Below are positions 9,551 through 26,079 of a stretch of DNA of 40,113 nucleotides, piece after piece. The position numbers and the translations under genes are program-made. Below the pieces are notes generated by a model. It did no database searches. It was not told the origin of the DNA and saw only the letters and a program-made list of their open reading frames with translations. Position 1 is the stretch's first letter. Every line of letters starts with the position of its first letter. This DNA comes from Humidesulfovibrio sp. (lineage in GTDB: Bacteria > Desulfobacterota > Desulfovibrionia > Desulfovibrionales > Desulfovibrionaceae): assembly GCF_031082295.1 (NCBI RefSeq), contig NZ_JAVHLD010000018.1, forward strand, positions 1 through 40,113. Direction: 5' to 3'.

Positions 9551-9566
9551 GCGCTGAGCCTAACGG

Positions 9567-9620: not shown

Positions 9621-9758
9621 GCGGAAGCGGCGCGCGGGAAATTCGGCGGCGGCCCTCACCTCCTGGCGTTCGTGCTCTCCCACCAGCGTTGCAATGCTGT
9701 CCGGGAAGTTGCGGACGCAGGAGCGGACACGACGGTGCATTGTCTGGAGCTTAAACTG

Positions 9759-9790
9759 AAAAAGGGCCGACACCTTTGGGGTGCCGGCCC
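9759..9790 (-). terminator. Terminator of the rplM-rpsI operon
   Basis: On the minus strand GGGCCGGCACC pairs with GGTGTCGGCCC (one mismatch) and is followed by T5. It lies about 30 bases behind the rpsI stop. Confidence 0.85.
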
Positions 9791-9821
9791 GAATGGGCAG
9801 GAGAGGGTAAACCGGTTCGGC

Positions 9822-10211
9822 CTAGCGCTTCGAGTACTGGAAGCGGGCGCGGGCGCCTTTCTGGCCGTACTTCTTGCGCTCTTTCTTGCGGGCGTCGCGG
9901 GTCAGGAACCCGGCGCGCTTCAAGGTGCCGCGCAGCTCCGGATCGAAGGTCAAGAGCGCGCGGGAGATGCCGTGACGGACGGCCTGGGCCTGTCCGGACA
10001 CGCCGCCGCCGGCGACATTGACCTTGATGTCGAACTTGTCGACGGTCTTGGTCAGCTTGAGCGCCTGCTGCACGATCATTTGCAGGGTCTTGCGCGGGAA
10101 GTATTCCTCGTAAGGACGGCCATTGACGGTGATCTGGCCGGTGCCAGCCATGACGCGGGTGCGCGCCACGGCGTTCTTGCGCTTGCCGGTGCCGTAATTG
10201 AAATCAAGCAT
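9822..10211 (-). CDS. rpsI: 30S ribosomal protein S9
   Basis: 129 aa, the normal length. N-terminal [12 protein letters not shown] and the C-terminal signature [14 protein letters not shown] are diagnostic; the S9 tail reaches the P-site tRNA in the ribosome. AGGAG lies 8 bases before the start. It follows rplM by 22 bp, the usual L13-S9 pair. Confidence 0.98.
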
Positions 10212-10233
10212 GCATCAACTCCTGGTGCGGAGG

Positions 10234-10662
10234 TTACAGGGCCAGAGCCTGGGGCTTCTGGGCGACGTGGGTGTGCTCGGGACCAGGGAACACCTTGAGC
10301 TTCTTGATGATCTGGCGGGACAGGCGGTTTTTCGGCAGCATGCCGCGCACAGCCTGGATGATCACCAGCTCGGGGTTCTTGTCCAGCATCTGCTGCAGGT
10401 TCCGGGTCTTGAGTCCACCGGGGTACAGCGTGTGCTTGTAGTACATCTTCTTGTTCAACTTGTCGCCGGTGACCTTGATCTTCGTGGCGTTGACCACGAC
10501 GATGAAGTCGCCGCCGTCCATGTGCGGGGCGAAACCGGGCTTGTGCTTTCCACGAAGGCGGTGGGCGATGGCGGTGGCCATGCGGCCCAGCACCATGTCC
10601 GTGGCATCGACCACGAACCATTCGTGCTTCAGGTCCGACGGGACCGGGCTGTACGTATTCAT
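10234..10662 (-). CDS. rplM: 50S ribosomal protein L13
   Basis: 142 aa from the ATG at 10662 (M-N-T-Y-S-P), the start with AAGGAG 9 bases upstream. A start 6 codons earlier is possible but gives a non-family N-terminus. V-D-A-x-D-x-x-L-G-R-M-A-T and the block [13 protein letters not shown] are typical of L13. First gene of the rplM-rpsI operon, with its own strong promoter. Confidence 0.98.
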
Positions 10663-10698
10663 TTTGGGCAGCTCCTTCACTTCAAACTGGAAACAGGG

Positions 10699-10727
10699 CT
10701 CTTACGGTTTTTGACCGAGCCTGTCAA
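10699..10727 (-). promoter_or_regulatory. Sigma70 promoter of rplM-rpsI
   Basis: On the minus strand TTGACA (10727-10722) and TAAGAG (10704-10699) are separated by 17 bases, 36 bases before the rplM start. This is the clearest housekeeping promoter in the window. Confidence 0.85.
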
Positions 10728-10772
10728 CTGAATTCCGCGACCTTTTCTTGGCCTCAACCCGGGGAACGTCCC

Positions 10773-13415
10773 CTAGGCCGCTGCCACCAACTCTTTCAGC
10801 TTGGCGATGGCCTTGTCAATGCCCGAGGCGTCGGTGCCGCCCGCCTGGGCCATATCGGGCCGACCGCCGCCGCTGCCGCCCACCAGGGCCGCAACATCTT
10901 TAATAAGGGCGGGCGCGGTGAACTTGGCGTGCAGGTCCTTGCTCACGCTGACGAGCACCGCCACCTTGCCGTCCTCGGTGGGGGCCACGATGCAGGCCAC
11001 GCCCGAGGGCAGCTTGCTCTTGAGCGCGTCCATCTGCTCGCGCAGGCTCTTGATGCTCGCCGCCTCGGCCTTGACCGCCAGCACCTTCACCCCGCCGATG
11101 TCCTCAACTTCGGCCATGCGGGCTCCGCCCTCGCCGCTGGCGAGCTTGGTCTGCAGGCGTTCCACGTCCTTCTGCAATGTCTTAACCTGGGCGCTCATGC
11201 TCTTGGCGCGGGCGGCCACCTCTTCCGGCCGGGCCTTGAGCACGGCCTGAACCTCTGCCATTTCCTGGCGCAGGGTCTGCAGGTGGTTCAGCGCGTTCCA
11301 GCCCGTGGCGGCCTCGATGCGCCGGATGCCCGCCGCCACGCCCGTCTCGGACAGGATGACGAAGCTGCCGGTCTGGCCGGTGTTGGTCAGGTGCGTGCCG
11401 CCGCAGAGCTCCATGCTCACGCCGGGGACTTCGACCAGGCACACCGTCTCGCCGTATTTCTCGCCGAACAGCGCCATGGCGCCGCGCGCGACGGCCTCCT
11501 TGGGGGTCACGATCTCGCGGCCCACCGGCAGGTCGTCCAGGATGGCGCGGTTGACGATCTGCTCCACCCGCAGGATCTCTTGCGGGGTCAGGGGCGCGAT
11601 GTGGGTAAAGTCGAAGCGCAGGCGCTCCGGGCCGACAAGCGAGCCGGACTGCTTCACGTGGTCGCCCAGCACCTGGCGCAGGGCCGAGTGCAGCAGGTGG
11701 GTGGCCGTGTGGTTGCGCGAGCTCGCCATGCGCGAGCGGGCGTTGACCGTGAGGCTGGCCGTCTGGCCGGTCTTGATCTCGCCCTCGTTGACGAAGATTT
11801 TGTGCACGGTGAGGCTCGGCGCGGGCTTGAGGGTCTCCAGCACGTCGGCGCCGCCGGTGGTGGTGGAGACCTCGCCGAGGTCGCCCTCCTGGCCGCCGGA
11901 CTCGCCGTAGAAGGGCGTGCTCGCCGCCACCAGCCAGCCGCCCTGGCCCTGGGTCAGCTCGTCCACCTGCTCGCCTTCGCCGTCCAGCAGGGCGCTCACG
12001 CGGCCGTCGTCCTCAAGCAGGGCGTTGCCGGTGAAGCGGGTCTTGAACCCGGACTCCAGCAGGCCCTGGAACATGCTGGCCACGTCCTTTTCGCCGGAAC
12101 CCTTCCAGGCGCTCTTGGCGCGGGTCTTCTGCTCCTTCATGCAGGCCATGAAGCCGGGCTCGTCCACGGTGATGCCCTGCTTCTCGGCCACGTCGTTGAC
12201 GATGTCGAGCGGGAAGCCGAAGGTGTCGTAGAGCTTGAAGGCGAACTCGCCGCTGATGCGGGTTTCGGTGTTCTCCTTCAGCCGCGCGATCTCGTCCTCC
12301 AGGATCACCAATCCCTTGTCCAGCGTCTGGGAGAAGCGTTCCTCCTCCTCGCGCACCACGCGGGCCATGAACTCCTGGTTGGACAGAAGCTCCGGGTAGG
12401 CGCCATGCATCTGGGCCACCACCTGGCGCACGGTCTCGTGCAGGAAGGGGTCGGTAAGGCCCATGAGGCGGCCGAAGCGGAAGGCCCGGCGGATGAGGCG
12501 GCGCAGCACGTAGCCGCGGCCCTCGTTGCTGGGCAGGATCTGGTCGGTGATGAGGAAGGCGATGGAGCGGCTGTGGTCGGCGATGACCTGAAGCGCCGTG
12601 TCCACTTCCTTGTCCGCGCGGTACTTCACCTTGGCCTTGTCGGCCACGAAGGAGATGAGCGGGGTGAAGATGTCGGTCTCGAAGTTGGACTGCTTGCCCT
12701 GGGCCACGGCGGCGATGCGCTCCAGGCCCATGCCGGTGTCGATGCTGGGGCGGGGCAGGGGAGTGCGGGTGCCGTCGGCCGCCTGGTCGAACTGCATGAA
12801 CACGAGGTTCCAGATTTCCAGGAAGCGGTCGCAGTCGCACTTGCCGATGCCGCAGTCCGGCCCGCAGGACATCTCCGCGCCCTGGTCCACGTAGATCTCG
12901 GAGCAGGGGCCGCAGGGGCCGGTGTCGCCCATGGACCAGAAGTTGTCCTTGTCTCCGAGGCGGTAGATGCGCTCCGGCGCGATGCCCGCCACGCTCTGCC
13001 ACAGCTCCCCGGCCTCGTCGTCATCCTTGTAGATGCTGACGTAGAGGCTCTCCTTCGGGAGCTTGATCTCCTTGGTGATGAAGTCCCAGGCCAGGCGGAT
13101 GGCGTCGGCCTTGAAGTAGTCGCCGAAGGAGAAGTTGCCGAGCATCTCGAAGAAGGTGTGGTGGCGCGCGGTGCGGCCCACGTTCTCCAGGTCGTTGTGC
13201 TTGCCGCCCACGCGCAGGCACTTCTGGGAGGTTACGGCGCGGGTGTAGGGGCGCTTCTCCTGGCCCAGGAAGCATTTTTTGAACTGGACCATGCCGGCGT
13301 TGGTGAACAGCAGGCTGGGGTCGTCCTTGGGCACCAGGGTGGAGCTTTCCACCACGGTGTGGCCGTTCTGCTCAAAGTACTTGAGGAAGCGGGAGCGGAT
13401 TTCTGCGGCGTTCAT
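10773..13415 (-). CDS. alaS: Alanyl-tRNA synthetase
   Basis: 880 aa from ATG 13415 (M-N-A-A-E-I); a TTG six codons upstream is a poorer choice. Class II catalytic core at the N-terminus ([12 protein letters not shown], then [18 protein letters not shown]). A Cys-rich insert, C-x3-C-x4-C-x-C, lies near residues 184-195. The editing domain is complete, with zinc ligands H569-x3-H573 and C671-x3-H675. The C-terminal domain ends in a Gly-rich segment, [10 protein letters not shown]. It charges tRNA-Ala and clears Ser-tRNA-Ala. It follows recA by 53 bp on the same strand, so they are probably co-transcribed. Confidence 0.98.
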
Positions 13416-13468
13416 GCGAGTTGTGTTCTCCAAAGGGTGATGTCGGATGGGGTGGGACGGGTGTCCTG

Positions 13469-14539
<1,071 letters not shown>

Positions 14540-15845: not shown

Positions 15846-15923
15846 GTCCCCATCGTCTAGCCTGGTCCAGGACGACGGCCTTTCACGCCGTTAACAGGGG
15901 TTCAAATCCCCTTGGGGACGCCA
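15846..15923 (+). tRNA. tRNA-Glu (anticodon TTC), integration target
   Basis: Acceptor GTCCCCA/TGGGGAC; anticodon stem ACGGC/GCCGT with loop CTTTCAC (anticodon TTC); T arm AGGGG-TTCAAAT-CCCCT. CCA is encoded at 15921-15923. The last 44 bases are duplicated at 26036-26079, so the 3' half is the attL copy of the integrated element. The complete, functional gene was restored on this side. Confidence 0.96.
15880..15923 (+). repeat. attL (44-bp repeat in tRNA-Glu)
   Basis: Identical to 26036-26079. It begins with the first base of the anticodon loop (CTTTCAC) and ends with the CCA. The bases on both outer sides differ between the copies. Confidence 0.95.
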
Positions 15924-15955
15924 ACGATTCCAGGTTGTTGCAGCCTGTTTAAGTT

Positions 15956-17113
15956 CTACTTGCTCACCGGATATCCCTGCGGATATCCTGAACCCTCGAA
16001 GGTACAAGCTTCGGGGGTTCTTTTCTTTGCGCTGAAGGGGATAACCTTGCCCCCCTCAGGGCGCATTGCCTCTTCCCTCAATCCGTCCACATCAAGCCCC
16101 AGGCTCTTCAGGTACCGTTCCGTGGTGGACGGGCTCTCATGGCGAAGCAGCTTCTGGACTTTGGCCAGCAGCACCCCCGAGTTGTAGAGCATAGCTGCCC
16201 GAAGGTGCCGGATCGCATGTAAGCCGAAGTGCTTCACCCCGGCGCGCCTGCACATACGTTCCATGAAGTGCTGACGCGACCGGAACGCCTCGCCTGGCAT
16301 GTGGTTTGGGCTTGGGGAATCGTCCAGGCATGTGAAGACGTGTTCAGTCTTGTATGGCCTGGCCTCCCGCCACCACTCCAGGGCTTCGCGCAGCTCGGGC
16401 AAGAGCGGCAACCAATCGGCCCGCCAAGAGCTGCCTTTGGTCTTCCTGGTGTAGAGCCGGACTCGGTTTGCGGTGAAGTCCACATCTTCCCATTTCAGGC
16501 GGAAGAGCTCTTCACGCCTGGCTGCCGTGTACAGGTAGGCCATGAGCATGACCTTATCCTGCCCCTTGGCCACCTCCAGCACGCGCCAGAAGTCCGCCTG
16601 AGGCGGGATGTACCTGGGGCTACGCTGCTCAGGGAACTTGTCTACGGCCAGGAAAGGATTGTCCCCCGCCGCTGGGAATCCCTCCATGTACCGCCTGCCC
16701 CATTTCCAGGCCGCCGCCAGGTTCTTTCTCACTCGGTTGGCCGCATGTCCTGAGCGGGTGTCGTTCTCATGCTGCAGAAGCCTCAAGGCGACTCCTGGAG
16801 TGATCTCGGCAAGCCCCGCCTGGCCGATGAAGGCAAGCAGTCTTTGCATGGCGCTACGCTTCTCCCACATGGTCTTTGTGCAACACCTTCGTTGCACGTC
16901 CTCCAGGTAGGAAGTCGCCCAAGCCAATGGCAGCGGCACGCTCGGCAAGGTCTGCTGGTCCAGCAACGCCGCGCGCTTGTCCCGCTCCCAGAGTATGGCC
17001 TTGCGCCCCTCTTTCGTGCCGCTCCCGAACCACTTGCTGGCGACGATCTTTCCGCCGATCTTCACGACCGCGCGCCACCTCATTATGCCACGTCGTAAGG
17101 TCTCCGTTGGCAT
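15956..17113 (-). CDS. int: Tyrosine integrase of the element
   Basis: 385 aa. The start ATG 17113 has AAGGAG 8 bases upstream. The N-terminal part (about 10-60) resembles the arm-binding domain, and 60-150 the SAM-like core-binding domain. The catalytic domain has R199 in T-A-A-R-R-E-E-L, H299-x2-R302, H325 in L-L-R-H-E-S, and the nucleophile Y334 in T-T-E-R-Y-L. It should recombine attP with the tRNA-Glu anticodon-loop site. The gene is last in the element and points at attL. Its first 260 bases overlap the preceding HTH frame. The last residues are encoded by the CGGATAT repeats and the antisense terminator stem. Confidence 0.93.
   Translation of the reverse strand: MPTETLRRGIMRWRAVVKIGGKIVASKWFGSGTKEGRKAILWERDKRAALLDQQTLPSVPLPLAWATSYLEDVQRRCCTKTMWEKRSAMQRLLAFIGQAGLAEITPGVALRLLQHENDTRSGHAANRVRKNLAAAWKWGRRYMEGFPAAGDNPFLAVDKFPEQRSPRYIPPQADFWRVLEVAKGQDKVMLMAYLYTAARREELFRLKWEDVDFTANRVRLYTRKTKGSSWRADWLPLLPELREALEWWREARPYKTEHVFTCLDDSPSPNHMPGEAFRSRQHFMERMCRRAGVKHFGLHAIRHLRAAMLYNSGVLLAKVQKLLRHESPSTTERYLKSLGLDVDGLREEAMRPEGGKVIPFSAKKRTPEACTFEGSGYPQGYPVSK
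15968..15986 (+). repeat. Left paired CGGATAT repeats, candidate integrase arm sites
   Basis: CGGATAT at 15968 and again at 15980, 12 bases apart and in the same direction, 44 bases inside attL. The same pair with the same spacing occurs near attR at 25929 and 25941. They lie in the last codons of the integrase gene. Confidence 0.65.
15990..16024 (+). terminator. Terminator for the tRNA transcript, antisense inside the integrase 3' end
   Basis: GAACCCTCGAAG pairs with CTTCGGGGGTTC (one G-T pair) across a 7-base loop and is followed by TTTT, then C and TTT. Its orientation stops plus-strand transcription leaving the tRNA genes. On the minus strand it codes for part of the integrase tail. Confidence 0.8.
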
Positions 17114-17291
17114 CGATGAATCTCCTTATTCGATTTTCAAAGAACCGCCAGCGTCCCGGAGCAACCCTCACGCCGCCAAGTGAGCCACCATATTTCTTCA
17201 CGGTGCGAACGTCCACACCCAGAAGATTGGCGACTTCCTGGGGCGTCATTGATTCCCCAAATTCGTTCAGGAGTCTTTCTTTCGCGTCCAT
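16854..17291 (-). CDS. HTH excisionase-like protein, frame overlapping integrase
   Basis: Open frame of 145 aa from ATG 17291 (weak AGGA upstream). Residues about 15-60 form a helix-turn-helix of the excisionase/MerR type: M-T-P-Q-E-V-A-N-L-L-G-V-D-V-R-T-V-K-K-Y, then G-R-W-R-F-F-E-N-R-I-R-R-F-I. Beyond residue 60 the frame runs 260 bp inside the integrase gene and has the composition of a shadow frame. The functional protein may therefore be only the first part, with a tail of no importance, or the two frames may be joined by frameshifting (integrase lies in a different phase). Role inferred: excision control or autoregulation. Confidence 0.6.
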   Translation of the reverse strand: MDAKERLLNEFGESMTPQEVANLLGVDVRTVKKYGGSLGGVRVAPGRWRFFENRIRRFIDANGDLTTWHNEVARGREDRRKDRRQQVVRERHERGAQGHTLGAGQARGVAGPADLAERAAAIGLGDFLPGGRATKVLHKDHVGEA

Positions 17292-17321
17292 GCTCTGTCC
17301 TAAATCAAGCCTAGCCCGCGG

Positions 17322-17783
17322 CTAGACCGCTTCTTCACAAAGCAGGTTGCCAAGTCTGTGGTGCAAATCTATCGCAAGGCGATCAAGTCGCTCCACAGCC
17401 GTCCACAAATAATTTTCCGCAGTCTGCAGCATGAGTTCTCTCTCCTGCGGATCATCCTCATGCTTCCTGGCGAAGTTCAGCATAGTTCTGGCTTCATCTG
17501 CCGATGAAGAACAAGACAGAAGCTCGACGCACAGGCCAGCGAGAGGGGGACACTTAAGCGTAGCCTCTAGATTTTCAGCGCCTTGAAATTGAGTCCGGTA
17601 GTAAGCATCGGCGCGGGCAAAATATGCCTGCACGTTGCCTAACGGGGCGGGGGTGTCTTCGGTGTGTCGTGCCGTCCCAACTCGGCTAAAAGTCAGGCCG
17701 GACGGGATGAGGCTCAGCGCAGACTTGAGGTCCAGATTGCCCTTGCGGTCCTGGACTGTGGTGGGATACTTGGAATCAGCCAT
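17322..17783 (-). CDS. Element protein of unknown function
   Basis: 153 aa. The start ATG 17783 has a strong AAGGAGG 6 bases upstream. It looks mostly helical, with a hydrophobic Cys-containing stretch (PPLAGLCVELLSCSSSADEA, about residues 78-97) and a C-terminal helix ending L-G-N-L-L-C-E-E-A-V. No signal peptide, membrane segment or known motif is visible. It lies between portal and the HTH gene, and its base composition is less GC-rich than the host's. Position would allow a head-completion or helper-interference protein, but nothing in the sequence shows either. Confidence 0.7.
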   Translation of the reverse strand: MADSKYPTTVQDRKGNLDLKSALSLIPSGLTFSRVGTARHTEDTPAPLGNVQAYFARADAYYRTQFQGAENLEATLKCPPLAGLCVELLSCSSSADEARTMLNFARKHEDDPQERELMLQTAENYLWTAVERLDRLAIDLHHRLGNLLCEEAV

Positions 17784-17815
17784 GTGTTCCTCCTTCGCGG
17801 TAGGTCACTGGTTAG

Positions 17816-17855
17816 GGGGTGAGGGGGGTAGCTGCCACGCGAGGCCCCTCATCCC
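17816..17855. other. Inverted repeat between portal and the 153-aa gene
   Basis: GGGGTGAGGGG (17816-17826) and CCCCTCATCCC (17845-17855) pair with one mismatch around an 18-base loop. There is no T-run. It may be a processing or weak termination site after portal. Confidence 0.4.
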
Positions 17856-17880
17856 TGCTTTATATCGTCTGCCGGGTGCC

Positions 17881-19077
17881 CTATGCGCCCGGCGTGACTC
17901 CTGTCTGTTTGCCGGGGAAATCGTCTCCTCCCGGCATGGGGTTCCATCCTTCCGCCTCCCTGATTTCATTCGGCGTCAGAATGCCGTTGCTCACTGCTAT
18001 CTGGTAGCCCTGCCAGCGCGCCCCGTGGTCGCCCCGCAGGAAGCCGGACAGGTCGAATTCAATCTGGTGCGTGGCCCTGTCCGCAGCAGACAGCACGGAG
18101 CGGGCAAACTCGGCTTCGAGCTTCCGGCACCAGGGGCCAATCGTGAAGGTGGCGAACCACTTGCCCGCCGTCTCGCTGTTGGTGAAGGTCGAGTGATCCC
18201 AGATGCCCACCATCGGAGGCGGCACCTGGAAAATGCGGGCCAGCTCTTCCGTGGTGAACCTGCGGCTGGACAGCAGCTCCGCATCCTCGGGAGAGACGGA
18301 GATTTGCTTCCAGTGCAGGCCGCTCTCCAGCAGCATGACCTTCCGCGCGTTCTGCGGGCCGGTGTAGGCGTCGTCAAACTGCTTCTTCAGCCGGTCGTAA
18401 GCTTCCGGCGCCAGCTTGGCGTCGGACTCCAGGGCGCCAGACGGGCTTGCCCCGTTGCGGTACATGCTCTCGGCAAAATCCTGGACGGACACGCCAGCGG
18501 CCACCACGGCGGCGGCGCGCTGGAGCCTGCTCTTGCCCAGAAGGCCGTCATCGGTGCGGTCGCGCAGGTGCATGACCTCGCCTTCCAGAAGCCGCCTGAA
18601 ACGGCCCTGTCCGCCGTAGATGCTGGTGATCTCCGTCACGTCATAGGCCAGGCGGCCAGAGGGCAGCACCTGGACGGAGACCCACTCCCACGGCACGGGC
18701 TTGAGTTCCTGCAAAAGGCCGGCGCGGTCTGTCACGATCTCCACCAGGGCGTTGCCGCGCAGGAGAGCGGAGGCCATGATAAATTCGATGAAATCCGGCC
18801 AGGTCTGCTTTTCGTTCGGGCCGCGCCTGATCAGTTCGGCCAGCGGGTGCGAGGCGTCTTCCACGCGCACCTTGCCTTCCATGCGGTATAGGTACGCGGG
18901 CAGGCTGGCAATGGCCGTGCTGATGGCCTGGACGCACGCCAGGACCGTGGAGAGGTTCTCCGCTGCACGGGGGTTCACCATGCGCCCGGTGGCTGTCCCG
19001 TGGCCGCTCAGGGCATCCCAGGAGGGGCAGGCGGCGCGCTGCTCAGTCTTGCCGAAAATCCGCTTGATGATGTTCAT
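17881..19077 (-). CDS. Phage portal protein, HK97 family
   Basis: 398 aa, full length for the HK97 portal family (PF04860). Visible marks are E-N-L-S-T-V-L-A-C-V-Q-A-I-S-T near residue 40, the P-x-W-P-D-F-I-E-F-style helix, the motif H-L-R-D-R-T-D-D-G-L-L-G-K-S near 170-183, F-Q-V-P-P-P-M-V-G near 285, and the C-terminal N-G-I-L-T-P-N-E-I-R-E-A-E-G-W-N-P. Portals form the 12-fold ring through which TerL pumps DNA. Its start overlaps the protease stop (ATGA). Here portal comes last in the head cluster, whereas HK97-type phages have portal-protease-capsid. Confidence 0.95.
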   Translation of the reverse strand: MNIIKRIFGKTEQRAACPSWDALSGHGTATGRMVNPRAAENLSTVLACVQAISTAIASLPAYLYRMEGKVRVEDASHPLAELIRRGPNEKQTWPDFIEFIMASALLRGNALVEIVTDRAGLLQELKPVPWEWVSVQVLPSGRLAYDVTEITSIYGGQGRFRRLLEGEVMHLRDRTDDGLLGKSRLQRAAAVVAAGVSVQDFAESMYRNGASPSGALESDAKLAPEAYDRLKKQFDDAYTGPQNARKVMLLESGLHWKQISVSPEDAELLSSRRFTTEELARIFQVPPPMVGIWDHSTFTNSETAGKWFATFTIGPWCRKLEAEFARSVLSAADRATHQIEFDLSGFLRGDHGARWQGYQIAVSNGILTPNEIREAEGWNPMPGGDDFPGKQTGVTPGA

Positions 19078-19586
19078 ACGGTCTCCAGGTAGCGCAGTGC
19101 GTTGGCCAGGCGCGGGGGCATCATGGCCCGCGCGGAAACGACCGTGCCGTTGTAGGCGGGCCAGGAAGAGACCACGCTGATTTCGTGCAGAGTCACGGCG
19201 CGCAGCTCGCGGCGGCGGCCCTGCCAGTTCTCGCCGCCTTTGCCTACAGTGAAGCCGAAGCTCATGCCGCCAAGGTCGCCGCGCTCGGCCAGGGCCAGCA
19301 CGTCACGGCCCAGCGTGGTTTCGGGAAGGTCGATCTCGAAGGCCAGGCCCTTGGAGTCTTCGGCAATGCGCAGGGTGCGGCTTTTTGTCCTGGCCAGGAG
19401 CTTTGCCGGGTCGTGATCCATCAGGGCCAGCACGTCACGGCCCAGGCTGCCACGGAAAGCGCCGGGTAAGATGATCTCGGTGAAGTCGGCAATGCGGGCC
19501 TCGGTCCCGAAGGTGGCCGCGTAGCCTTCCAGCTTGCGGCCTGCGGCCCTGATTTCCGTCACGTAGCGGCGTTCGATGTTGCTCAT
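19074..19586 (-). CDS. Prohead maturation protease, HK97 family (S78)
   Basis: 170 aa from ATG 19586, with AAGGGT 5 bases upstream; a GTG 21 codons earlier is less likely. Family marks: E-G-Y-A-A-T-F-G, catalytic His in L-M-D-H-D-P-A-K-L-L-A-R, catalytic Ser in G-G-M-S-F-G-F, and E-I-S-V-V-S-S-W-P-A-Y. It trims the capsid delta domain during head assembly. It lies between capsid and portal genes and overlaps portal by 4 bp. Confidence 0.93.
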   Translation of the reverse strand: MSNIERRYVTEIRAAGRKLEGYAATFGTEARIADFTEIILPGAFRGSLGRDVLALMDHDPAKLLARTKSRTLRIAEDSKGLAFEIDLPETTLGRDVLALAERGDLGGMSFGFTVGKGGENWQGRRRELRAVTLHEISVVSSWPAYNGTVVSARAMMPPRLANALRYLETV

Positions 19587-19668
19587 GTTGACCCTTGTTG
19601 GCTGCTCATCAGGCCCAGGCCGCCACGCCTGGACGAACGGTGCAATCACTGCCCGTTTTCGCGTCGTT

Positions 19669-20937
19669 TTAAGCGGCGGTGCCCACGTTCTGCGAGGCCG
19701 CGAAGCTCTCCGTGTGGCGCACGGCCACGTCGCAGGTGAGCATGCCGCGCACCTGCACGTTGCCCTTGCTGTAGGCCGTGCTCTCGTAGGGGTTGACCAG
19801 GATTTCGAAGGCGCTCCAGTAGCCCAGGATCAGGTCGGACCAGGCCCCGAAAATGAGGCTGCCCGACACGGGGCTGGCGACGGTGGGGCCAAGCGTGGTC
19901 CTGGCCACGGGGTAGCCTGCCAGGGTGCCCAACTCGGGCATGATGTAGCCCAACTCGGCGGCGCTGGCGTCCTTCAGCGTCCGGCGCAGCGCACGAAACA
20001 CCTTGGGGTGCCCCAGGAAGGCCGTGCCCTCGGCGTTGGCGTCTTCCACCAGGCCGATCAGCTCCAGCAGGTTGTCCCAGCTCGGCGTGGCCATGTCGTG
20101 GTCCGTGGTGTCCGCCTGCTCAAGGATGCCGTCGGGCTCGTTGGAACCGCCGCCCTTGATGGCCGCGCGGTCCACGGCTTCGGCCAGGATCTTGGCGAAG
20201 TCGGAGCGGATCAGCTCTTCGATGCCGGGGGAGGACTGCTGAAGCATGTTGCGGCTGAACTCGGTCAGGGCTCCGGCATGCTTGGGCGTCATCTGCACCT
20301 TGGTGAATTCCGCGTCCGAGGGGGTCAGGGCTCCATTCTCGGAGACCCAGCCAGCGGTGGCCGAGCCCTTGAGCTTGGGAATGTCCACGTTGCCGTGCAG
20401 GCCGGGCAGCACGGTGGCCCCGAGGGTGTTCACCTTGAGGGCCGCGCGCAGAATGTCGATGTACAGTTTGCCCATGTGGTCCGTGGCGATGATGTTCGAG
20501 CCGGGGCCGCCGCCAGGGGCCGCAGTCGTGATGACGCGCTTCTCGAAGACGTGCATGGGCACCATGATCCCGCGCGCCTTGACGCCCATGCGCCGGGCAA
20601 GCTCCTGGCTCAGTTCGCGCTCTTTGCCGCTGTCCACGTTCAGGTCGGGCACCTGCGAGGCGATGGCCCGGACCAGGGAGAAGTCGCGCAGCTCGCGGTC
20701 CAGATTGCCGTCGCCGGTTCCGGTGATCTGCTGGCCCTGCATGCGCCGGTCGGCTTCGTCCAAAAGCGTCTGGCGCTCAATCCGCTTCTCCAGGCCGCCC
20801 AACTCACCCTTGAGGGTGTCGAAACGCTGCGCCTGTTCGGTGCTAAGGTCGCCGCCCTCGCCGCCGGGATTGTCCGTCAACTCCCGCATGGACGCCACGA
20901 CGCGCCCTCGCTGCTCAAGCAAGTCTTTCATCTTCAT
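19669..20937 (-). CDS. Major capsid protein, HK97 fold
   Basis: 422 aa from ATG 20937, with AAAGGAG 8 bases upstream. The first about 115 residues are a charged helical delta/scaffold region (Q-A-Q-R-F-D-T-L-K-G-E-L). The capsid fold follows from about residue 135: I-I-A-T-D, V-D-I-P-K-L, T-A-G-W-V-S-E-N-G-A-L-T-P, and P-S-W-D-N-L-L-E-L-I-G. The C-terminal part has the usual G-Y-P-V-A-R-T and L-I-F-G-A-W-S-D-L-I-L-G-Y. The element encodes its own shell rather than only redirecting a helper capsid. First of capsid-protease-portal. Confidence 0.96.
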   Translation of the reverse strand: MKMKDLLEQRGRVVASMRELTDNPGGEGGDLSTEQAQRFDTLKGELGGLEKRIERQTLLDEADRRMQGQQITGTGDGNLDRELRDFSLVRAIASQVPDLNVDSGKERELSQELARRMGVKARGIMVPMHVFEKRVITTAAPGGGPGSNIIATDHMGKLYIDILRAALKVNTLGATVLPGLHGNVDIPKLKGSATAGWVSENGALTPSDAEFTKVQMTPKHAGALTEFSRNMLQQSSPGIEELIRSDFAKILAEAVDRAAIKGGGSNEPDGILEQADTTDHDMATPSWDNLLELIGLVEDANAEGTAFLGHPKVFRALRRTLKDASAAELGYIMPELGTLAGYPVARTTLGPTVASPVSGSLIFGAWSDLILGYWSAFEILVNPYESTAYSKGNVQVRGMLTCDVAVRHTESFAASQNVGTAA

Positions 20938-20959
20938 GGTCTGTACTCCTTTATGGCTT

Positions 20960-20974
20960 CCGCCATTTTGGCGG
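20960..20974. promoter_or_regulatory. Perfect hairpin in the capsid gene leader
   Basis: CCGCCA-TTT-TGGCGG lies just before the AAAGGAG of the capsid gene. It could tune capsid translation, or be an operator for the regulator gene upstream. The remaining leader, 20975-21104, shows no clear promoter. Confidence 0.5.
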
Positions 20975-21104
20975 GAGGTTTCGTCTTGCGGCGTGGGGCC
21001 TTTCTGTGGCTAAGGCGTTGTTGCCCGGATGTCCTTTTCCGAGGCTCCCTTTTGATTCTTGGGCGCGCCGCACGCCCGCACAGCGGAGAACCGGGCAGGG
21101 GTGA

Positions 21105-21641
21105 CTATAGAAGGCGCTTCAAATTATCCAAACCAGAAAGCGCTACATCCAGAAGCGCGTAGCAGTCGATAACAATCCAAGAAGTGTGAGGAATTGTATT
21201 AAAGCTGAGAGGGGCTGGTATTGATGAAATGCTTGATAATACTTCGTCTCGTGCTTCGTCATACCATGCAGACACGAAGCGTTCAAATTCGCCAAGCTTT
21301 GAATCTGATAAATCTTCGAATGCTCCAGAATACTCCATGAGCCGACGCCCAACGCAGAGCATTACTTTAGCGGAAAGTCCTCTTGCGGAACCCTGGAGGG
21401 GGAGCCCAAGCCGTGACAATTGCGTGAAGGCCAGCACCTCAATCAACCCTGAGAAGCTAAATAACATCGCTCGGCCAGTGCCAGGGCGAATGGAACCCCT
21501 CAGTTCGACGTAGCCTCGCTTTACCCACTGCGAAAGAGTGGCAGGCTTGATGCCTGCGATAGTTGCCACTTCTTCCGTGGTCAAAAACGGATGAAGCTCA
21601 CTATCCAGGTATTTGCTGGCTTGTTCTTGCGTTAGGGCCAT
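21105..21641 (-). CDS. MerR-like helix-turn-helix regulator of the element
   Basis: 178 aa from ATG 21641, with CAGGAGAT 7 bases upstream. The HTH is near residues 19-45 (L-T-T-E-E-V-A-T-I-A-G-I-K-P-A-T-L-S-Q-W-V-K-R-G), followed by a MerR-type wing (G-T-G-R-A-M-L-F-S-F-S-G-L-I-E-V-L-A-F). The C-terminal 100 residues are helical with no known ligand motif. The gene is clearly more AT-rich than its neighbours and sits between TerL and capsid with its own promoter. A role in timing head-gene expression or sensing a helper is inferred only from position. Confidence 0.8.
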   Translation of the reverse strand: MALTQEQASKYLDSELHPFLTTEEVATIAGIKPATLSQWVKRGYVELRGSIRPGTGRAMLFSFSGLIEVLAFTQLSRLGLPLQGSARGLSAKVMLCVGRRLMEYSGAFEDLSDSKLGEFERFVSAWYDEARDEVLSSISSIPAPLSFNTIPHTSWIVIDCYALLDVALSGLDNLKRLL

Positions 21642-21660
21642 AGTAATCTCCTGTGGCGAA

Positions 21661-21689
21661 AAGGTACGTTCGTACAGTACCGTTGTCAA
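21661..21689 (-). promoter_or_regulatory. Regulator promoter with overlapping dyad operator
   Basis: Minus strand TTGACA (21689-21684), 17 bases, TACCTT (21666-21661). The spacer holds nested dyads: GTACG-TT-CGTAC at 21664-21675 and GGTAC/GTACC at 21663-21667 and 21677-21681. An operator between -35 and -10 is the usual place for MerR-type regulators, so autoregulation is likely. Confidence 0.7.
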
Positions 21690-21722
21690 CTATTTTTAAG
21701 TCTTTGTATTTCAGCATTTTGG

Positions 21723-23372
21723 CTACAGAAATATTGGCCTCGAAAAGTCCACGACTTGCGGTGCCGGTTCCCGCGAGTGAAGACCAATGGCCATTGTTAG
21801 GGCTACCAGACCATCAACCCTATCAAGACTTTTGTCCTTGGCGATCTTCCGCGCGCCTGCCGGATCAACCTGCACGACGGCGTTTGAGCAGCACCAGGTC
21901 AAGACCGGGTGGCCGCCATGCCGGAGCTTGCCCTCAAGGATGGCCGTTTCTAGTGCGTCCACGGCTGGCCCCATGTCCTTGAAGCCCTGGCCCCAATCCT
22001 TGAGCGTGATATCTATGCCCTCATCTGCAAGGATTTTCTTCAAGTCCTCGATGCGCCAGCGGTCATAGGCGATGCCTTGGATATCGTAGAGGCCGGAGAG
22101 CTCGCCCAGGCGCAGCGCCACGGCCAGCTTGTCTATGGCCCGCCCCGGCAGGGCCTCGATGTGCTTCTTTCTCGACCAGAGGCCATAGGGCACACGGTCG
22201 CGGTCTTCTCTCGCCTCGATGTTGTCGCCAGGCACCCAGAAGAACGGCAATACGGCCCCGCCGTCTTCGGGAAAGTAGAGCACAAGGGCGGTCAAGTCCG
22301 TGGTGCTGGACAGGTCCAGGCCGCCCCAGCATGGCCGCCCACGGAGCGAGGCAAGGTCAACCGCGCCCGCGCAGGCCTCCCAATCGCCCGAGCTGATGAA
22401 ACGCTGGTCAGGGTCAACGGCCTGGTTCAAGTACAGGTTGCGAAAGGCCGCTTCCTTGGCCGGAATGCGCTTGGCCTGGGCCGCGAAGAGCCGCATTTCC
22501 TCCAGGCTGCGGAAGTCGCCCAAGGCAGGGTTGCAGGCATGCCACACGGTTTCATCCCACGGGTCGGCGTCTGGTGGGGCCTCGAAAATCGCCGCGTAGA
22601 AGCTCCGGTCCTGAATGAGCCCATCCCGCACCTTGCGCCCGTACTCGGTCAGCTCGGACATGACGTGGTGCGGGTCGCTGGACTGCGTACTGATGACCAC
22701 CATGAGCGGCTCGGCGCGCGCGCCCGTGCCGGTCGTCAGGTTGTCGTACAGGTGCCGGTTCGGGGCCTGGGCCAGCTCGTCATAGACCATGAAAGACGGG
22801 CTCAGGCCGTGGGCCTTGCGGGCATCGGAGCTGAGGGCAATATAGGTGCTGCCCGTCACTGTGTCTTCGATCTGCTTGCCAAAGTCGCGGATGATGACGC
22901 GCTGCGCGAACTCAGGGACGGCCAGGATGATGGCCTTCATTTCGCGGAAGATGATGCTGGCCTGGTCGCGGTCGCTTGCTGCGCTGAAGACCTGGCCACG
23001 GGATTCAGCCTCAGGCCCCACAAGGTGGGCGAGGGCGAGACCGGACGCGATTTGGCTCTTTCCGTTCTTTCTAGGCACGGTGAAGAGGGCCTGCCGCACG
23101 ATCCGCTTGCCATTCTTGCCCGTGGCGTAGATGCCTTCGATGATCTTTTTCTGCCACGGCCTGAGCTTGAATTTTTTCCCGGCGTGCATGCCGCTGGTGA
23201 TCGGCAGGAACTCCAGGAAGGCGATGACGCGCGCGGCCCGAGAAAGCCCGCGCTTTTCCCAAGGGAATTGGGTTTTCTCTTTGCGCGGGGCGGTCGTGCC
23301 CCACAAGGAAAGCTGCCCGCTCTTCACGGGGGCCTTTTCAACGGGCTTCGCGCCTGGTCCTCTTTTGCCCAT
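21723..23372 (-). CDS. Terminase large subunit (Terminase_1, HK97 type)
   Basis: 549 aa, full length. The ATPase half has R-P-W-Q-K-K-I-I-E-G (adenine side), Walker A P-R-K-N-G-K-S and Walker B F-M-V-Y-D-E-L-A-Q. The nuclease half has G-G-L-D-L-S-S-T-T-D-L-T and, near the C-terminus, D-R-V-D-G-L-V-A-L-T-M-A. It drives DNA into procapsids and cuts it. The start ATG 23372 has GAGGGG close by. It follows the HNH gene by 17 bp; HNH-TerL pairing is typical of HK97-like cos phages, where HNH proteins assist terminase cutting. Confidence 0.96.
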   Translation of the reverse strand: MGKRGPGAKPVEKAPVKSGQLSLWGTTAPRKEKTQFPWEKRGLSRAARVIAFLEFLPITSGMHAGKKFKLRPWQKKIIEGIYATGKNGKRIVRQALFTVPRKNGKSQIASGLALAHLVGPEAESRGQVFSAASDRDQASIIFREMKAIILAVPEFAQRVIIRDFGKQIEDTVTGSTYIALSSDARKAHGLSPSFMVYDELAQAPNRHLYDNLTTGTGARAEPLMVVISTQSSDPHHVMSELTEYGRKVRDGLIQDRSFYAAIFEAPPDADPWDETVWHACNPALGDFRSLEEMRLFAAQAKRIPAKEAAFRNLYLNQAVDPDQRFISSGDWEACAGAVDLASLRGRPCWGGLDLSSTTDLTALVLYFPEDGGAVLPFFWVPGDNIEAREDRDRVPYGLWSRKKHIEALPGRAIDKLAVALRLGELSGLYDIQGIAYDRWRIEDLKKILADEGIDITLKDWGQGFKDMGPAVDALETAILEGKLRHGGHPVLTWCCSNAVVQVDPAGARKIAKDKSLDRVDGLVALTMAIGLHSREPAPQVVDFSRPIFL

Positions 23373-23389
23373 AACCCCTCGATTTGAAA

Positions 23390-23755
23390 CTAACTCTGTG
23401 TTTGAGGCCCTACTCGGTCCAAGGCGTCAGCCGCCAGAGATTTTCCGTTCCACCAATGGCGGCGGTCGATCGGCCTGCCGTTCGCGTCACACCCCCGCAA
23501 GGGCTTGCCTTTGCCCTTCTTGTTCCCGAATGCGCCGTCTTCGGATGCTGTCTTGCGGCTGTGGCAGGACTGGCAGCAGCTCGCGAGGTTGTCCCATGCC
23601 CACGGGTCGCCCCCTTCTTTCACCGGCACCTTGTGGTCTACCTGGTTGGCCAGCTGCTCACGCCCGGGCGTGCAGTATTCACACATGGGCGCGGCTCGGA
23701 GCTTGGCCACCCGAAGCCGCCGCCACTGGCTGGTGTTGTAGGGCCAATCAGCCAC
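23390..23755 (-). CDS. HNH endonuclease
   Basis: 121 aa from GTG 23755 with GAGGAG upstream. Zinc ligands C25-x2-C28 and C61-x2-C64 surround the HNH core: D40-H41 (V-D-H-K-V-P-V), N56 (W-D-N-L) and H65 (C-H-S-R-K). In HK97-like phages the HNH protein beside terminase is needed for genome cutting at cos. It overlaps the preceding 63-aa gene by 8 bp and is followed at once by TerL, so a packaging role is likely. The C-terminal 50 residues are basic and unusual, possibly DNA-contacting. Confidence 0.93.
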   Translation of the reverse strand: MADWPYNTSQWRRLRVAKLRAAPMCEYCTPGREQLANQVDHKVPVKEGGDPWAWDNLASCCQSCHSRKTASEDGAFGNKKGKGKPLRGCDANGRPIDRRHWWNGKSLAADALDRVGPQTQS

Positions 23756-23939
23756 GGGGCTCCTCGAAGCGGAAATGATCCCCTTGGACGTGCGCCGTTG
23801 CCTGCTCTATCTCTTCCCTGGCCTCGCGCATGTCGCGCACAACGTCGTTGAGAGCGCTCACCATGATAAGCGCCTGTTTGTGTGACATGCCCTTTGCCTT
23901 GAGCCTGCGCTCGATAGTGCGCTTGACGATGGCTTCCAT
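23748..23939 (-). CDS. Small helical protein of unknown function
   Basis: 63 aa from ATG 23939, with GAGAGGA 8 bases upstream. It looks helical throughout: a basic N-terminal half (V-K-R-T-I-E-R-R-L-K-A-K) and an acidic second half (R-E-A-R-E-E-I-E-Q-A-T). No family recognised. It occupies the position a small terminase would have (before HNH-TerL), but is too short and shows no HTH. It overlaps HNH by 8 bp, so co-translation is likely. Confidence 0.65.
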   Translation of the reverse strand: MEAIVKRTIERRLKAKGMSHKQALIMVSALNDVVRDMREAREEIEQATAHVQGDHFRFEEPRG

Positions 23940-24019
23940 GTTGATCTTCCTCTCTTGCCGCTCGGGCGGCGCAAAATGCAGTTGTGTTAATCCCTTGGTT
24001 TTGCCTGCTCCCGACAGCA

Positions 24020-25819
24020 TCAAGCCACGGCCCGAAGGTTCTTCTTTGGGCTCATGTCCCGGTACCATTCGCCTTGCGGCAAGAGGCGGCATCCATCGAC
24101 CGTCTTGAACTTGAGTTGCATCCCGTTGGGGTTCTCATGTGAGCGCCAGTTCTTGGCCTTCACGATCTTGATGAGCCCTGGCTCAAGGGCCAGATACAGG
24201 CGCGGCTTCTCCAGACTCCTGCCACCCCCCAGCCCCAGGTCGGTGCCTTTGTTCTTCTGCAGGGCGACGATGGCCAGCGCGCCGTGTAGTTTGTCGTGGA
24301 TGGCCTTGAGCTGGCCGCCAACGCGGTAGAAGTCCTCGGAGACCTCAAGGAAGTCGATGATGTTGATGACTCCGGGGCCTGGCCTGATGGCGTCTTGAAA
24401 GTTGTCGGTGCGTTCCCAGGCGTGGAAGGTCCAGTCTGCTAGTGGCGTGGGGAATTTGCTCAAGCGCTTTTTCAGCTCTTGCGCCCCCATTTCCGAGTTG
24501 AAGTAATGCACCTGGGATTTGTGCATGTTCTCGCGCACGACGTTGAGCAAAAAGGCAGTCTTGCCCGCGTTCGGCTCACCGGCAAGAACGCAGATATTCC
24601 CCGGCATGAGTTCCACCATCTTGTCCAGGCCAAAAGGCAGGGTGATATCCACTGCCGGTTCGTCCGTGGTTAGAAAATCGATGGCGGGGCACTCTGTTTC
24701 GATTTTGCGGAAGGTGGCGTTACGAGTTCCAACGCGCTCTATCTTGGATTTATGTATTCTTCTTAAGAGGGCCTGGGAGACGGCAACCCGCTGCCCCCGC
24801 GTGCTGAATCCAGCCCATTGGCAAAGCTCAAAAGACGTAAAAGTTCCGGTAGCTTGTTCAATGAACAGGTCCACGAAAAAGCTCACTTCGGCTGTTGACG
24901 CTGTTGACGATTCTGGGGCTGCTGTTGACGGTTCTGTTGACGATTTGTCAACGCTTGTTGACGCTGTTGACGGTGTTGACGCTGTTGACGGTGTTGACGA
25001 AATAGGGGGTTTGTTGACGCTGTTGACGCTCTCCGGCTTCCTCGGTTCCTGCTCCCCGGCGGCAAAACCAGAGGCGAAAGTTTTGGCCGCTTCTACTGGA
25101 TTCAGACCAGCTCGCGAGGCTGCCAAGAGCAAGGTTGATTCGCCCTCTACCCGGTCGATTTGTCCGCCTGCTACTAGCTGCCCGATGCAGTAGGCAGCGC
25201 TGTTCAAGGCGTGGTTTCTTGTCCCTTCCGGCGCGAGTGCAACCCTTGAGGCTTCCGCTTCAAGCGCTTTTCGCCCGTATGGGGTCGTAGAGGCGTTTTG
25301 GATTGCCGGGGCGGGCTTGTGCTGCTTCGGGGCCGTCAGGAGCGCCAGGAGCCACGCCGGGGCCTCGGCACGGCCTTTTCCTTGCGTCCAGACATAGCCT
25401 GGCGTGGGCGGGGCGATGACGTAGCCGCCTTCGGTGCGAATATCCAGGCCAGCCCCCAGCCGCCGCGCGGAGTTTTTCAGCTCCAGGCCCTCAGGCAAGA
25501 TGAAGTGCCGATGCTCCCCGCCCGACTTGGTGCGGGCGGTCCAGGTAGGCGGCAAAGGGCCGTGTTCGGCTTCCAGGGCGGCCAAGGCTGCGGGGCCGTC
25601 TGGCAAGTCCACGTCCAGCACGAAAGTGCCCGTATTTGCACCGACAGGGACGCCGATCTGTGCATCGGGCCAGCGCTCCCACCATTCGCGCACCTGGGCT
25701 TGATCCTGCGTCGCGTCTTTGAGGCCGTGAGGCGTCAGGGGCTTTTTGTCTTTGCACGGGAAGAGCCGCCAAGAGGTGGCAAGGCTCAAAACCTGCTCAA
25801 GGTAGGTGGCTTCACTCAT
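24020..25819 (-). CDS. Replication protein: bifunctional prim-pol plus RecA-fold helicase/ATPase
   Basis: 599 aa; ATG 25819 after GAGGAGGT. N-terminal prim-pol (PF09250 type, about 1-165): catalytic D69-x-D71 (V-L-D-V-D), S-G-G-E-H103-R-H, and D126 in G-L-D-I-R-T-E-G-G-Y-V-I-A-P-P. A Ser/Thr/Ala-rich linker (about 263-310) is encoded by the octamer repeats. C-terminal ATPase: Walker A G-E-P-N-A-G-K420-T, Walker B I-N-I-I-D-F, then Q-K-N-K-G. A one-protein primase plus helicase that fires its own origin is the replication mode of P4-like satellites and PICIs. The gene gives the element replication independent of a helper, an inference from the domains. It is the first large gene of the element, coupled to the 51-aa ORF (ATGA). 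Confidence 0.92.
   Translation of the reverse strand: MSEATYLEQVLSLATSWRLFPCKDKKPLTPHGLKDATQDQAQVREWWERWPDAQIGVPVGANTGTFVLDVDLPDGPAALAALEAEHGPLPPTWTARTKSGGEHRHFILPEGLELKNSARRLGAGLDIRTEGGYVIAPPTPGYVWTQGKGRAEAPAWLLALLTAPKQHKPAPAIQNASTTPYGRKALEAEASRVALAPEGTRNHALNSAAYCIGQLVAGGQIDRVEGESTLLLAASRAGLNPVEAAKTFASGFAAGEQEPRKPESVNSVNKPPISSTPSTASTPSTASTSVDKSSTEPSTAAPESSTASTAEVSFFVDLFIEQATGTFTSFELCQWAGFSTRGQRVAVSQALLRRIHKSKIERVGTRNATFRKIETECPAIDFLTTDEPAVDITLPFGLDKMVELMPGNICVLAGEPNAGKTAFLLNVVRENMHKSQVHYFNSEMGAQELKKRLSKFPTPLADWTFHAWERTDNFQDAIRPGPGVINIIDFLEVSEDFYRVGGQLKAIHDKLHGALAIVALQKNKGTDLGLGGGRSLEKPRLYLALEPGLIKIVKAKNWRSHENPNGMQLKFKTVDGCRLLPQGEWYRDMSPKKNLRAVA
24893..25028 (+). repeat. Eleven TGTTGACG octamers, candidate replication iterons
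   Basis: Exact TGTTGACG at 24893, 24902, 24923, 24935, 24956, 24965, 24974, 24983, 24992, 25012 and 25021, plus one inverted near-copy (TGTCAACG at 24946). Most steps are 9 bases; others are 12, 20 and 21. The 20-base step changes reading frame, yet the octamer stays exact. They lie inside the replication gene. Confidence 0.8.
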
Positions 25820-25971
25820 TTGGCCACCTCCTCAAGGGCAATCGTCAACCTGTCCGTCAAGCGGCTACAGGTCATGCCCACTTCAGAGGCGAGGGTGAGC
25901 ATCCAACGCAAGGCGCGTTTGCGGATGGCGGATATTCCGACGGATATCTTCTGGCATGCTCGGTAGTGCAT
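25816..25971 (-). CDS. Small basic protein, first gene of the element
   Basis: 51 aa, too short for most gene callers. ATG 25971 has CGGAG 9 bases upstream and the stop overlaps the replication gene's start (ATGA), a strong sign of real coupling. The sequence begins M-H-Y-R-A-C-Q-K-I-S and has a basic first half (I-R-K-R-A-L-R-W-M) and an amphipathic, acidic end (T-I-A-L-E-E-V-A-K). No family recognised. The right CGGATAT pair lies inside it. It may be a regulator or only a leader peptide setting translation of the replication protein. Confidence 0.55.
   Translation of the reverse strand: MHYRACQKISVGISAIRKRALRWMLTLASEVGMTCSRLTDRLTIALEEVAK
25929..25947 (+). repeat. Right paired CGGATAT repeats, candidate integrase arm sites
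   Basis: CGGATAT at 25929 and 25941, same direction and same 12-base step as the pair at 15968/15980 near attL. They lie 89 bases inside attR. Confidence 0.65.
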
Positions 25972-26035
25972 TCTCTGCTACTCCGTGCTGCGCTAACATC
26001 CAGGAATCCTTGGCAGGCGTAGGGTTGCTAGGCGG

Positions 26036-26079
26036 CTTTCACGCCGTTAACAGGGGTTCAAATCCCCTTGGGGACGCCA
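26036..26079 (+). repeat. attR (44-bp partial tRNA-Glu)
   Basis: Exact copy of 15880-15923: anticodon loop to CCA. The 5' half of the tRNA is missing and the bases before it do not restore the anticodon stem, so this is not a tRNA gene. Confidence 0.95.

Follow-up and report, generated by a model that had tools for sequence, protein, structure and literature searches.

A tRNA-Glu island of Humidesulfovibrio as a likely capsid-forming, tail-borrowing phage satellite

Introduction

P4-like satellites, phage-inducible chromosomal islands (PICI) and phage-inducible chromosomal minimalist islands (PICMI) have no major capsid protein of their own and use the capsid of the helper. Here we describe an island at a tRNA-Glu gene of Humidesulfovibrio sp. 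which, unlike these elements, has its own capsid, prohead protease and portal genes. It lies in assembly GCF_031082295.1, contig NZ_JAVHLD010000018.1, positions 1-40,113; this 40,113-nucleotide stretch is called the window, and all island positions are given in its coordinates. Its gene content makes it very probably a capsid-forming phage satellite that borrows tails.

The closest described systems also build their own heads. In the extract of PMC10690885 used here, capsid-forming PICIs (cf-PICIs) are defined by capsid, protease, portal, head-tail connectors, both terminase subunits and an HNH endonuclease. Like them, the island is integrated and encodes capsid, protease, portal, large terminase (TerL) and HNH without tail genes. 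Unlike them, it has no connector or small terminase (TerS) that could be found, it is about 10 kb long against a printed mean of 14 kb, and its hosts are not in the list printed in the available part of PMC10803314. Some of its complete relatives also differ from cf-PICIs in having no TerL or HNH that could be found.

The satellite-plasmids of Vibrio (cf-PISP) share with the island a PF05065 capsid, protease, portal, HNH and terminase and have no tails, according to the extract of PMC13230959. They encode head-tail adaptor and closure proteins, as does a plasmid block of Acinetobacter described below (L182), whereas the island is chromosomal at a tRNA. Four relatives of the island (L119, L121, L124 and L126) resemble both in being circular without a detected integrase. 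The Streptomyces satellites MulchRoom and MiniFlayer likewise have their own capsid and packaging genes, with helper tails proposed; as described in the extract of PMC10690885, they differ in a scaffold, a head-to-tail adapter, a TerS, terminal repeats, virulent helpers and no obvious replicase.

HK97-type phages resemble the island in TerL (about 40% identical), HNH, HK97 capsid family and S78 protease. They are about 36-40 kb long with tails and lysis genes, whereas the head block of the island runs capsid-protease-portal.

Results

Precise insertion of the island at tRNA-Glu

Two perfect 44-bp repeats lying 10,156 bp apart delimit the island (15880-26079). Between them, 12 open reading frames (ORFs), all on the minus strand, occupy about 95% of the DNA, and none of them has an internal stop. 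The tRNA-bounded, one-direction element of about 10.2 kb proposed by the sequence-only reading was thereby confirmed exactly. In the direction of transcription the genes are the 51-aa ORF, prim-pol, the 63-aa ORF, HNH, TerL, a MerR-type helix-turn-helix (HTH) protein, HK97 capsid, S78 protease, portal, a 153-aa ORF (X153), a 145-aa HTH ORF and integrase (Table 1).

In the sister genome G158 (L047) the site is empty, and the tRNA end directly joins the sequence that stands right of attR in the window. The integrase, the attachment (att) repeats and the empty site in a relative, by which an integrative tRNA island is known, were all found. These sequences show that the insertion is precise and was made by site-specific recombination at tRNA-Glu.

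In the sister genome G157, the same 44-bp att copies flank a 49.5-kb prophage (L066-L068, C22, 113106-162677). Its integrase is 71% identical to that of the island, and no other window protein matched there. Nine of its ORFs were scanned, and their matches, of the podovirus kind, included internal virion and head-tail adaptor proteins as well as tail fibre and endolysin. A tailed phage and a satellite have this integrase in common at one site; the tRNA-Glu site is a hot spot at which the integrase is traded. The prophage was rejected as the tailed parent of the island because only the integrase matches.

Head and packaging genes

Ten proteins were each scanned with Pfam, PHROGs and NCBIfam; the 63-aa ORF was scanned separately and the 51-aa ORF against Pfam only. 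The 145-aa HTH ORF was entered as its first 57 residues only in the coverage, internal-stop, relatives-count, first Pfam and NCBIfam analyses. Integrase, prim-pol/helicase, HNH, TerL, capsid, protease and portal, all named by the sequence-only reading, were backed by these searches.

The island thus has the capsid, protease and portal that characterize cf-PICIs, together with TerL and HNH. TerL contains both the ATPase and the nuclease domain, and among solved structures its profile was closest to the TerL 6z6d (E 3e-140). Its sequence similarity was to phages of the HK97 group, as given above. The portal is of the tailed-phage type by both family and solved-structure matches. The structure model of the capsid had a pLDDT of 49 and was not used.

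Table 1. Features of the island and its insertion site (coordinates of the window)
Feature	Position	Strand	Evidence
tRNA-Glu (UUC), insertion site	15846..15923	+	ARAGORN
attL, last 44 bases of tRNA-Glu	15880-15923		repeat search
Tyrosine integrase, 385 aa	15956..17113	-	PF00589 E 1.9e-20; phrog_1 E 1.3e-40
AlpA/excisionase-like HTH ORF, 145 aa, HTH in first 62 residues	16854..17291	-	HTH_17; phrog_66
X153, unknown accessory protein, 153 aa	17322..17783	-	phrog_948 E 0.006, weak
Portal protein, 398 aa	17881..19077	-	PF04860 E 5.5e-98; TIGR01537
Prohead protease (S78), 191 aa, GTG start	19074..19649	-	PF04586 E 2.5e-37; TIGR01543
HK97-type major capsid protein, 422 aa	19669..20937	-	PF05065 E 3.9e-37; phrog_617 E 2.2e-70; TIGR01554
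MerR-type regulator, 194 aa, TTG start, between TerL and capsid	21105..21689	-	HTH_17 E 2.5e-6
Large terminase (TerL), 549 aa, HK97 type	21723..23372	-	PF20441 E 2.2e-38; PF03354 E 1.9e-23
HNH endonuclease, 121 aa	23390..23755	-	PF01844 E 1e-10
S63, small ORF beside HNH, 63 aa, unknown	23748..23939	-	related ORF in 7/64 loci
Prim-pol with partial DnaB-like helicase domain, 599 aa, replication	24020..25819	-	PF09250 E 1.1e-38; PF03796 E 1.1e-7
51-aa ORF upstream of prim-pol, unknown	25816..25971	-	ORF list
attR, perfect 44-bp copy of tRNA-Glu 3' end	26036..26079	+	repeat search; empty site in G158

Modules without a match in the window

The absence of tail, lysis, connector and small terminase genes, also claimed from sequence, held in the sense that Pfam, PHROGs and NCBIfam convincingly matched none of them in the window. 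No tail, lysis or connector family was matched among the window proteins, so that the tail and lysis genes of a tailed temperate phage were not found there. For TerS no convincing family was found in the window; the one weak match (phrog_7067, E 0.009) covered 19 residues of the HTH ORF. The same search recognised connectors in relatives (phrog_442 in L111; 2 of 48 ORFs), and the relatives L036 and L116 matched Terminase_4 and phrog_83.

Survey of related loci

The host's family was covered by 288 genomes, its own included. Some capsid match was found in 18 of them and a match of at least 40% identity in six, among which G081 looks like a remnant. The capsid-profile scan gave 18 loci in named genomes (Desulfovibrio, Alphaproteobacteria, one Clostridia metagenome-assembled genome (MAG) and one Synechococcus) and 68 loci in viral contigs. 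Phylum-wide, the profile matched in 22 of 395 genomes, mostly weakly. The analysed set comprised 64 loci: 42 viral contigs, 13 Alphaproteobacteria, seven from the host's family and two others. L078, L087 and L090 were dropped because length and place identified their contigs with those of L033, L037 and L039; L004-L006 and L012/L040 did not enter the set either.

Capsid was recognisable in all 64 loci, portal and protease in 61 each, integrase in 45, TerL in 37, HNH and the MerR-type protein in 29 each, and the AlpA-like protein (query: first 57 aa) and the 63-aa ORF in seven each. Prim-pol of the window type was found in one, and the 153-aa and 51-aa ORFs in none. Many contigs are short, which makes these counts lower bounds. 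The genes mostly run in the order replication-HNH-TerL-regulator-capsid-protease-portal-HTH-integrase-tRNA, with exceptions such as the permuted modules of L115 and L181. L181 (7458-18967 in G302) also has a transposase-like ORF, judged by eye, and a portal split into two ORFs, and is possibly inactive.

In other genomes of the host's family, the head block adjoins tRNA-Glu, tRNA-Asp or tRNA-Ser. The tail-less block that was looked for at tRNA-Glu in related genomes was present there, and beside the other two tRNAs too. Neither a tail module nor lysis genes were seen in any relative that has this head block.

For the 13 complete relatives, Pfam was run on 82 of the 86 first-choice unassigned ORFs (four short ones were left out) and on all 45 alternative ORFs of at least 100 aa on the capsid strand; ORFs were pooled for scanning, and the owner of a match is not always shown. 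The matches were replication, HTH, Terminase_4 and a few other families, one gp6-like connector (PF05135) and one Peptidase_S74. With PHROGs, the 82 ORFs gave mostly replication families among the 25 of 66 matches listed. A further PHROGs scan of 48 mostly non-replication ORFs gave 20 families. Two ORFs matched a head-tail adaptor, two matched TerS and one matched a second TerS family. An 88-aa "tail fiber" family was matched by two ORFs, six families of the tail-fibre type by one ORF each (probably the L093 ORF discussed below), and a TerL family weakly (phrog_13702, E 4e-6). Among the matches listed for the complete relatives there was no family for a tape measure, a tail tube, a baseplate, a holin or an endolysin.

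The 88-aa "tail fiber" (phrog_12296) occurs in L123 (9672-9938), with related ORFs in L098, L107, L122 and L124. In four of these five loci it lies directly upstream of the capsid gene, and it seems as likely to be a head decoration protein.

Connector, TerS and TerL vary among the relatives. The circular member L099 has a connector (PF05135 and phrog_442); the gp6-like connector was recognised by family search in L111, and similar ORFs, two of them short, occur in seven further loci. P27-type TerS was found in L036, L116 and L126, where it co-occurs with the MerR-type protein. In six of the 14 complete members (L086, L091, L093, L121, L124 and L126) tblastn with the lineage's own proteins found no TerL or HNH and Pfam found no TerL; the phrog_13702 match leaves doubt on the TerL absence for one of the 13 complete relatives. 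These TerL-negative members keep capsid and portal, and mostly the MerR-type gene too. Dependence on a helper therefore seems, from these gene contents, to be graded within the lineage.

Two loci show gene exchange. G214 has three related islands with different integrases (L034, L035 and L036); one adjoins tRNA-Glu, another tRNA-Asp, and the third lies near a tRNA-Arg. The head genes of the three are close to one another, with little difference between the capsids; L036 alone has a different TerS-TerL module, as if its packaging specificity had been swapped. The 18.15-kb contig of L123 (IMG/VR 3300049136_000040) holds parts of two different lineage members in a row; two copies of one element were rejected, because its two portals differ.

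Length of the elements

The 14 bounded or circular members, the window included, have a mean length of 10,048 bp (standard deviation (SD) 626, range 8,672-11,307), and the nine firmest-bounded ones a mean of 10,042 bp (SD 301). Bounded at a tRNA are the window, L080 (Parvularcula, tRNA-Val), L081 (Kiloniellaceae, tRNA-Arg), L086 (Roseomonas, tRNA-Thr) and L107 (tRNA-Gly); short repeats of 16-19 bp bound L089, L091, L093 and L115. The others are contigs with repeated ends, taken as circles: the ends are identical in L099, L119, L121 and L126, which fit excised or replicating circles, and 95% identical in L124.

Among viral-contig capsid matches of at least 38% identity, 44 of 45 were on contigs of at most 15 kb; below 38% identity, six of 23 were on such contigs and 17 on longer ones. 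The bounded set is the better length evidence because some contigs are fragments.

When head volume is scaled down from a T=7 head of 40 kb, which is arithmetic and not a measurement, 10 kb would fit a T=3 head (about 11 kb) or, loosely, a T=4 head (about 17 kb). Lengths in the lineage vary little, which suggests that a small head (T=3 or T=4, not T=7) takes a single unit, in preference to concatemer filling of a large head.

Selection on the head genes

Comparison of the window with L002 and L003, its nearest relatives, gave a dN/dS of 0.15-0.21 for TerL, capsid, protease and portal. Among the three islands of G214 it was 0.06-0.26 for HNH, capsid, protease and portal. Higher values were obtained in gene-exchange pairs (0.33-0.37 for TerL of L036 versus L034 or L035; 0.56-0.58 for the L123 portal). 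dS was partly saturated in distant pairs, and HNH dS was not computable in two pairs. The head genes are intact and, by these ratios, under purifying selection; decay is unlikely. The earlier argument that intact genes speak against prophage decay was thus borne out, with no internal stops and head-gene values of about 0.06-0.26 outside the exchanged genes. Two signs of a prophage remnant, a relative with the head block plus tail or lysis genes and disrupted head genes, were looked for and neither was seen.

Capsid tree

A first tree held 66 family and 38 phage rows and took 63 of the 64 loci (capsid ORF of at least 250 aa). It put 60 family rows in one group, with a support of 81 in the Shimodaira-Hasegawa-like approximate likelihood ratio test (SH-aLRT). 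L094 (Synechococcus) fell among the phages, and five family rows were without a resolved place. A second tree was built without 11 rows that were repeats or had long branches, without identical rows and without the bulk of one phage cluster; 58 family rows stood on one side of a branch (82), and 57 of them grouped at 96. Both trees were quick ones without bootstraps, and their "phage" rows were named phages or loci of low capsid identity whose tails were not checked one by one. The trees suggest that the lineage capsids mostly group apart from the sampled phage capsids.

Beside the 57-row group of the second tree stands L182 (NZ_CP044475.1 45348-51228; SH-aLRT 94, long branch), a tail-less cf-PICI-like or satellite-plasmid block near repM on a plasmid of Acinetobacter schindleri. 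Its order is capsid-protease-portal-HNH-hypothetical ORF-TerL-connector-head closure. Given the gene content and tree position of L182, the lineage may have a common ancestor with cf-PICI-like elements. A capsid gene ahead of the portal gene is not specific to satellites, as a lambdoid prophage in L159 has this order too.

Regulators, replicase and small ORFs

The AlpA-like HTH ORF matched HTH_17 (E 5.1e-6; 27.1 bits, with the cut-off at 27) and phrog_66, an excisionase/regulator family (E 8.7e-6); its first 57 aa alone stayed below the Pfam and NCBIfam cut-offs. It overlaps the integrase start by 260 bp. Such an ORF enters the integrase gene by 248-281 bp in another frame in the window (16854-17291), L002 (7983-8534) and L003 (7998-8444). 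The long overlap may be real or a chance open frame.

The AlphaFold2 model of the MerR-type protein had a pLDDT of 80. It best matched CvkR in the PDB (7xn2, E 2.1e-4, TM 0.54/0.68), a MerR-type repressor that occurs in type V-K CRISPR transposons, and no BFVD viral model matched at E 0.001 or better. The model thus places a predicted CvkR-like fold in a phage satellite (21105-21689). The alignment of this protein was made from the window, L005 and 23 out of the 29 loci in which a MerR-type ORF occurs. We do not prefer the protein as a hidden TerS, because the matches of its model are CvkR and further regulators of the MerR type and because it co-occurs with P27-type TerS in L036, L116 and L126.

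X153 had no relative among the 64 loci. It was rejected as a gp6-like connector, because it had no Pfam or NCBIfam match and its likeness to the ORF at the same place in L002 is limited to the first 15 residues. S63, which probably starts at 23939, gave no convincing family in Pfam and PHROGs scans. The 51-aa ORF had no Pfam match and no relative among the 64 loci. Searching viral contigs with prim-pol gave distant matches only.

Discussion

Our results suggest that the island is very probably a phage satellite which forms its own capsids and borrows tails. Several points weigh against it. With no connector or TerS found, tail joining and cos recognition need helper parts or unrecognised proteins. 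Many relatives are short contigs, so that genes absent there prove nothing. L093, a Rhodospirillales MAG, has a 435-aa ORF with Peptidase_S74 just after the portal (12719-14023). S74 domains occur in tail fibres and spikes; L093 may therefore bring its own receptor-binding protein, and not every member is free of tail-type proteins.

Finally, a helper prophage with matching tails, as envisaged by the sequence-only reading, was not recognised in the 73 contigs of the host assembly. The searches found one TerL of the island kind and one PF05065 capsid there, and no match to PF04865, PF10145, PF03237, PF05136 or PF04984. This missing helper is not a strong point against a satellite because, in the extract of PMC11389934, none of 17 resident prophages mobilised EcCIEDL933 at detectable frequency.

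A tail-borrowing satellite could work as follows. The MerR/CvkR-like regulator would keep the head genes silent until a helper acts. Upon helper infection or induction the island would excise, perhaps aided by the AlpA-like HTH protein, and prim-pol/helicase would make concatemers. In HK97 packaging, TerL with HNH cuts single units bounded by cos sites. In the same way, TerL and HNH of the island would cut at a cos site and bring single units of about 10 kb into small heads, for which the island's capsid, protease and portal would be the building parts. Head completion or connectors would come from the helper, as would the tail, lysis functions and perhaps a small terminase.

The rival that survives best is a member of the cf-PICI family whose connectors and TerS have diverged past recognition, with X153, the 63-aa, the 51-aa and the MerR-type proteins as candidates. 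Capsid, protease, portal, TerL, HNH, integrase and replicase are common to both; L182, a block with connector and closure proteins, adjoins the lineage in the trimmed capsid tree, and some relatives do have a gp6-like connector or P27-type TerS. However, both modules were looked for in the window and not found, the MerR-type candidate is predicted to fold like a transcription regulator and occurs together with TerS in three relatives, and length and hosts depart from those printed for cf-PICIs (PMC10803314, in part). We consider membership possible yet doubtful. The working logic of cf-PICIs, to which the sequence-only reading had matched the island, fits; membership does not follow, and the island is not filed as a cf-PICI because connectors and TerS were searched for without success.

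A complete minimal virus without a helper would be tail-less or use an unrecognised injection device, and would be released without known lysis genes. Head and packaging genes are present, X153, the 63-aa ORF and the 51-aa ORF have no assigned function, no helper was recognised in the host genome, and L093 has its tail-fibre-like ORF. These three ORFs are, however, small, and few or none of the 64 loci have a relative of them; the portal belongs to the tailed-phage type, and TerL was not found by tblastn or Pfam in six of the 14 complete members, which leaves this explanation improbable.

Descent from a tailed prophage, with loss of its tail and lysis genes, finds some support in the tRNA shared with the G157 prophage and in the related integrase. 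But nothing beyond that integrase matches the window, and the scanned ORFs of the prophage are of the podovirus kind; the head genes are intact with mostly low dN/dS (0.06-0.26); and in other hosts, too, the block is found without a tail module, in elements of comparable length. Selection, recurrence and size led us to reject a remnant as very improbable.

Weakest is a gene-transfer-agent-like or otherwise domesticated head cluster serving the host, which is scarcely credible: capsid and portal sequences match entries among solved structures that we read, from their Rcc names, as RcGTA, but the island has its own integrase, att sites and replicase, its capsid is patchy (at least 40% identity in six of the 288 family genomes, its own included), and circular forms exist in relatives.

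Beyond the tail-borrowing satellite itself, the lineage could be an old, separate class of capsid-forming satellites of about 10 kb in Alphaproteobacteria and Desulfovibrio-type hosts. Its core would be capsid-protease-portal, often with a MerR-type switch, and connectors, TerS and partly the whole terminase would be left to the helper. We propose this tentatively, as somewhat less than an even prospect. A literature search found no description of the lineage, which may be among the data of Alqurainy 2023 or of the SatelliteFinder paper.

If the island is such a satellite, capsid-forming satellites would extend past the hosts printed for cf-PICIs. The steady length would predict one head size, and the head-gene set would be graded, with or without TerL, TerS and connector. 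The minimal kit for hitching on a tailed phage would become testable, and the lineage would offer natural variants for the mating of a head with a foreign tail and for filling by a foreign terminase. Were the separate class real, the satellite would supply small heads that are filled by foreign terminases and fitted with foreign tails. If the satellite reading is right, some of the 10-kb phage contigs called "partial" in viromes may well be complete satellites.

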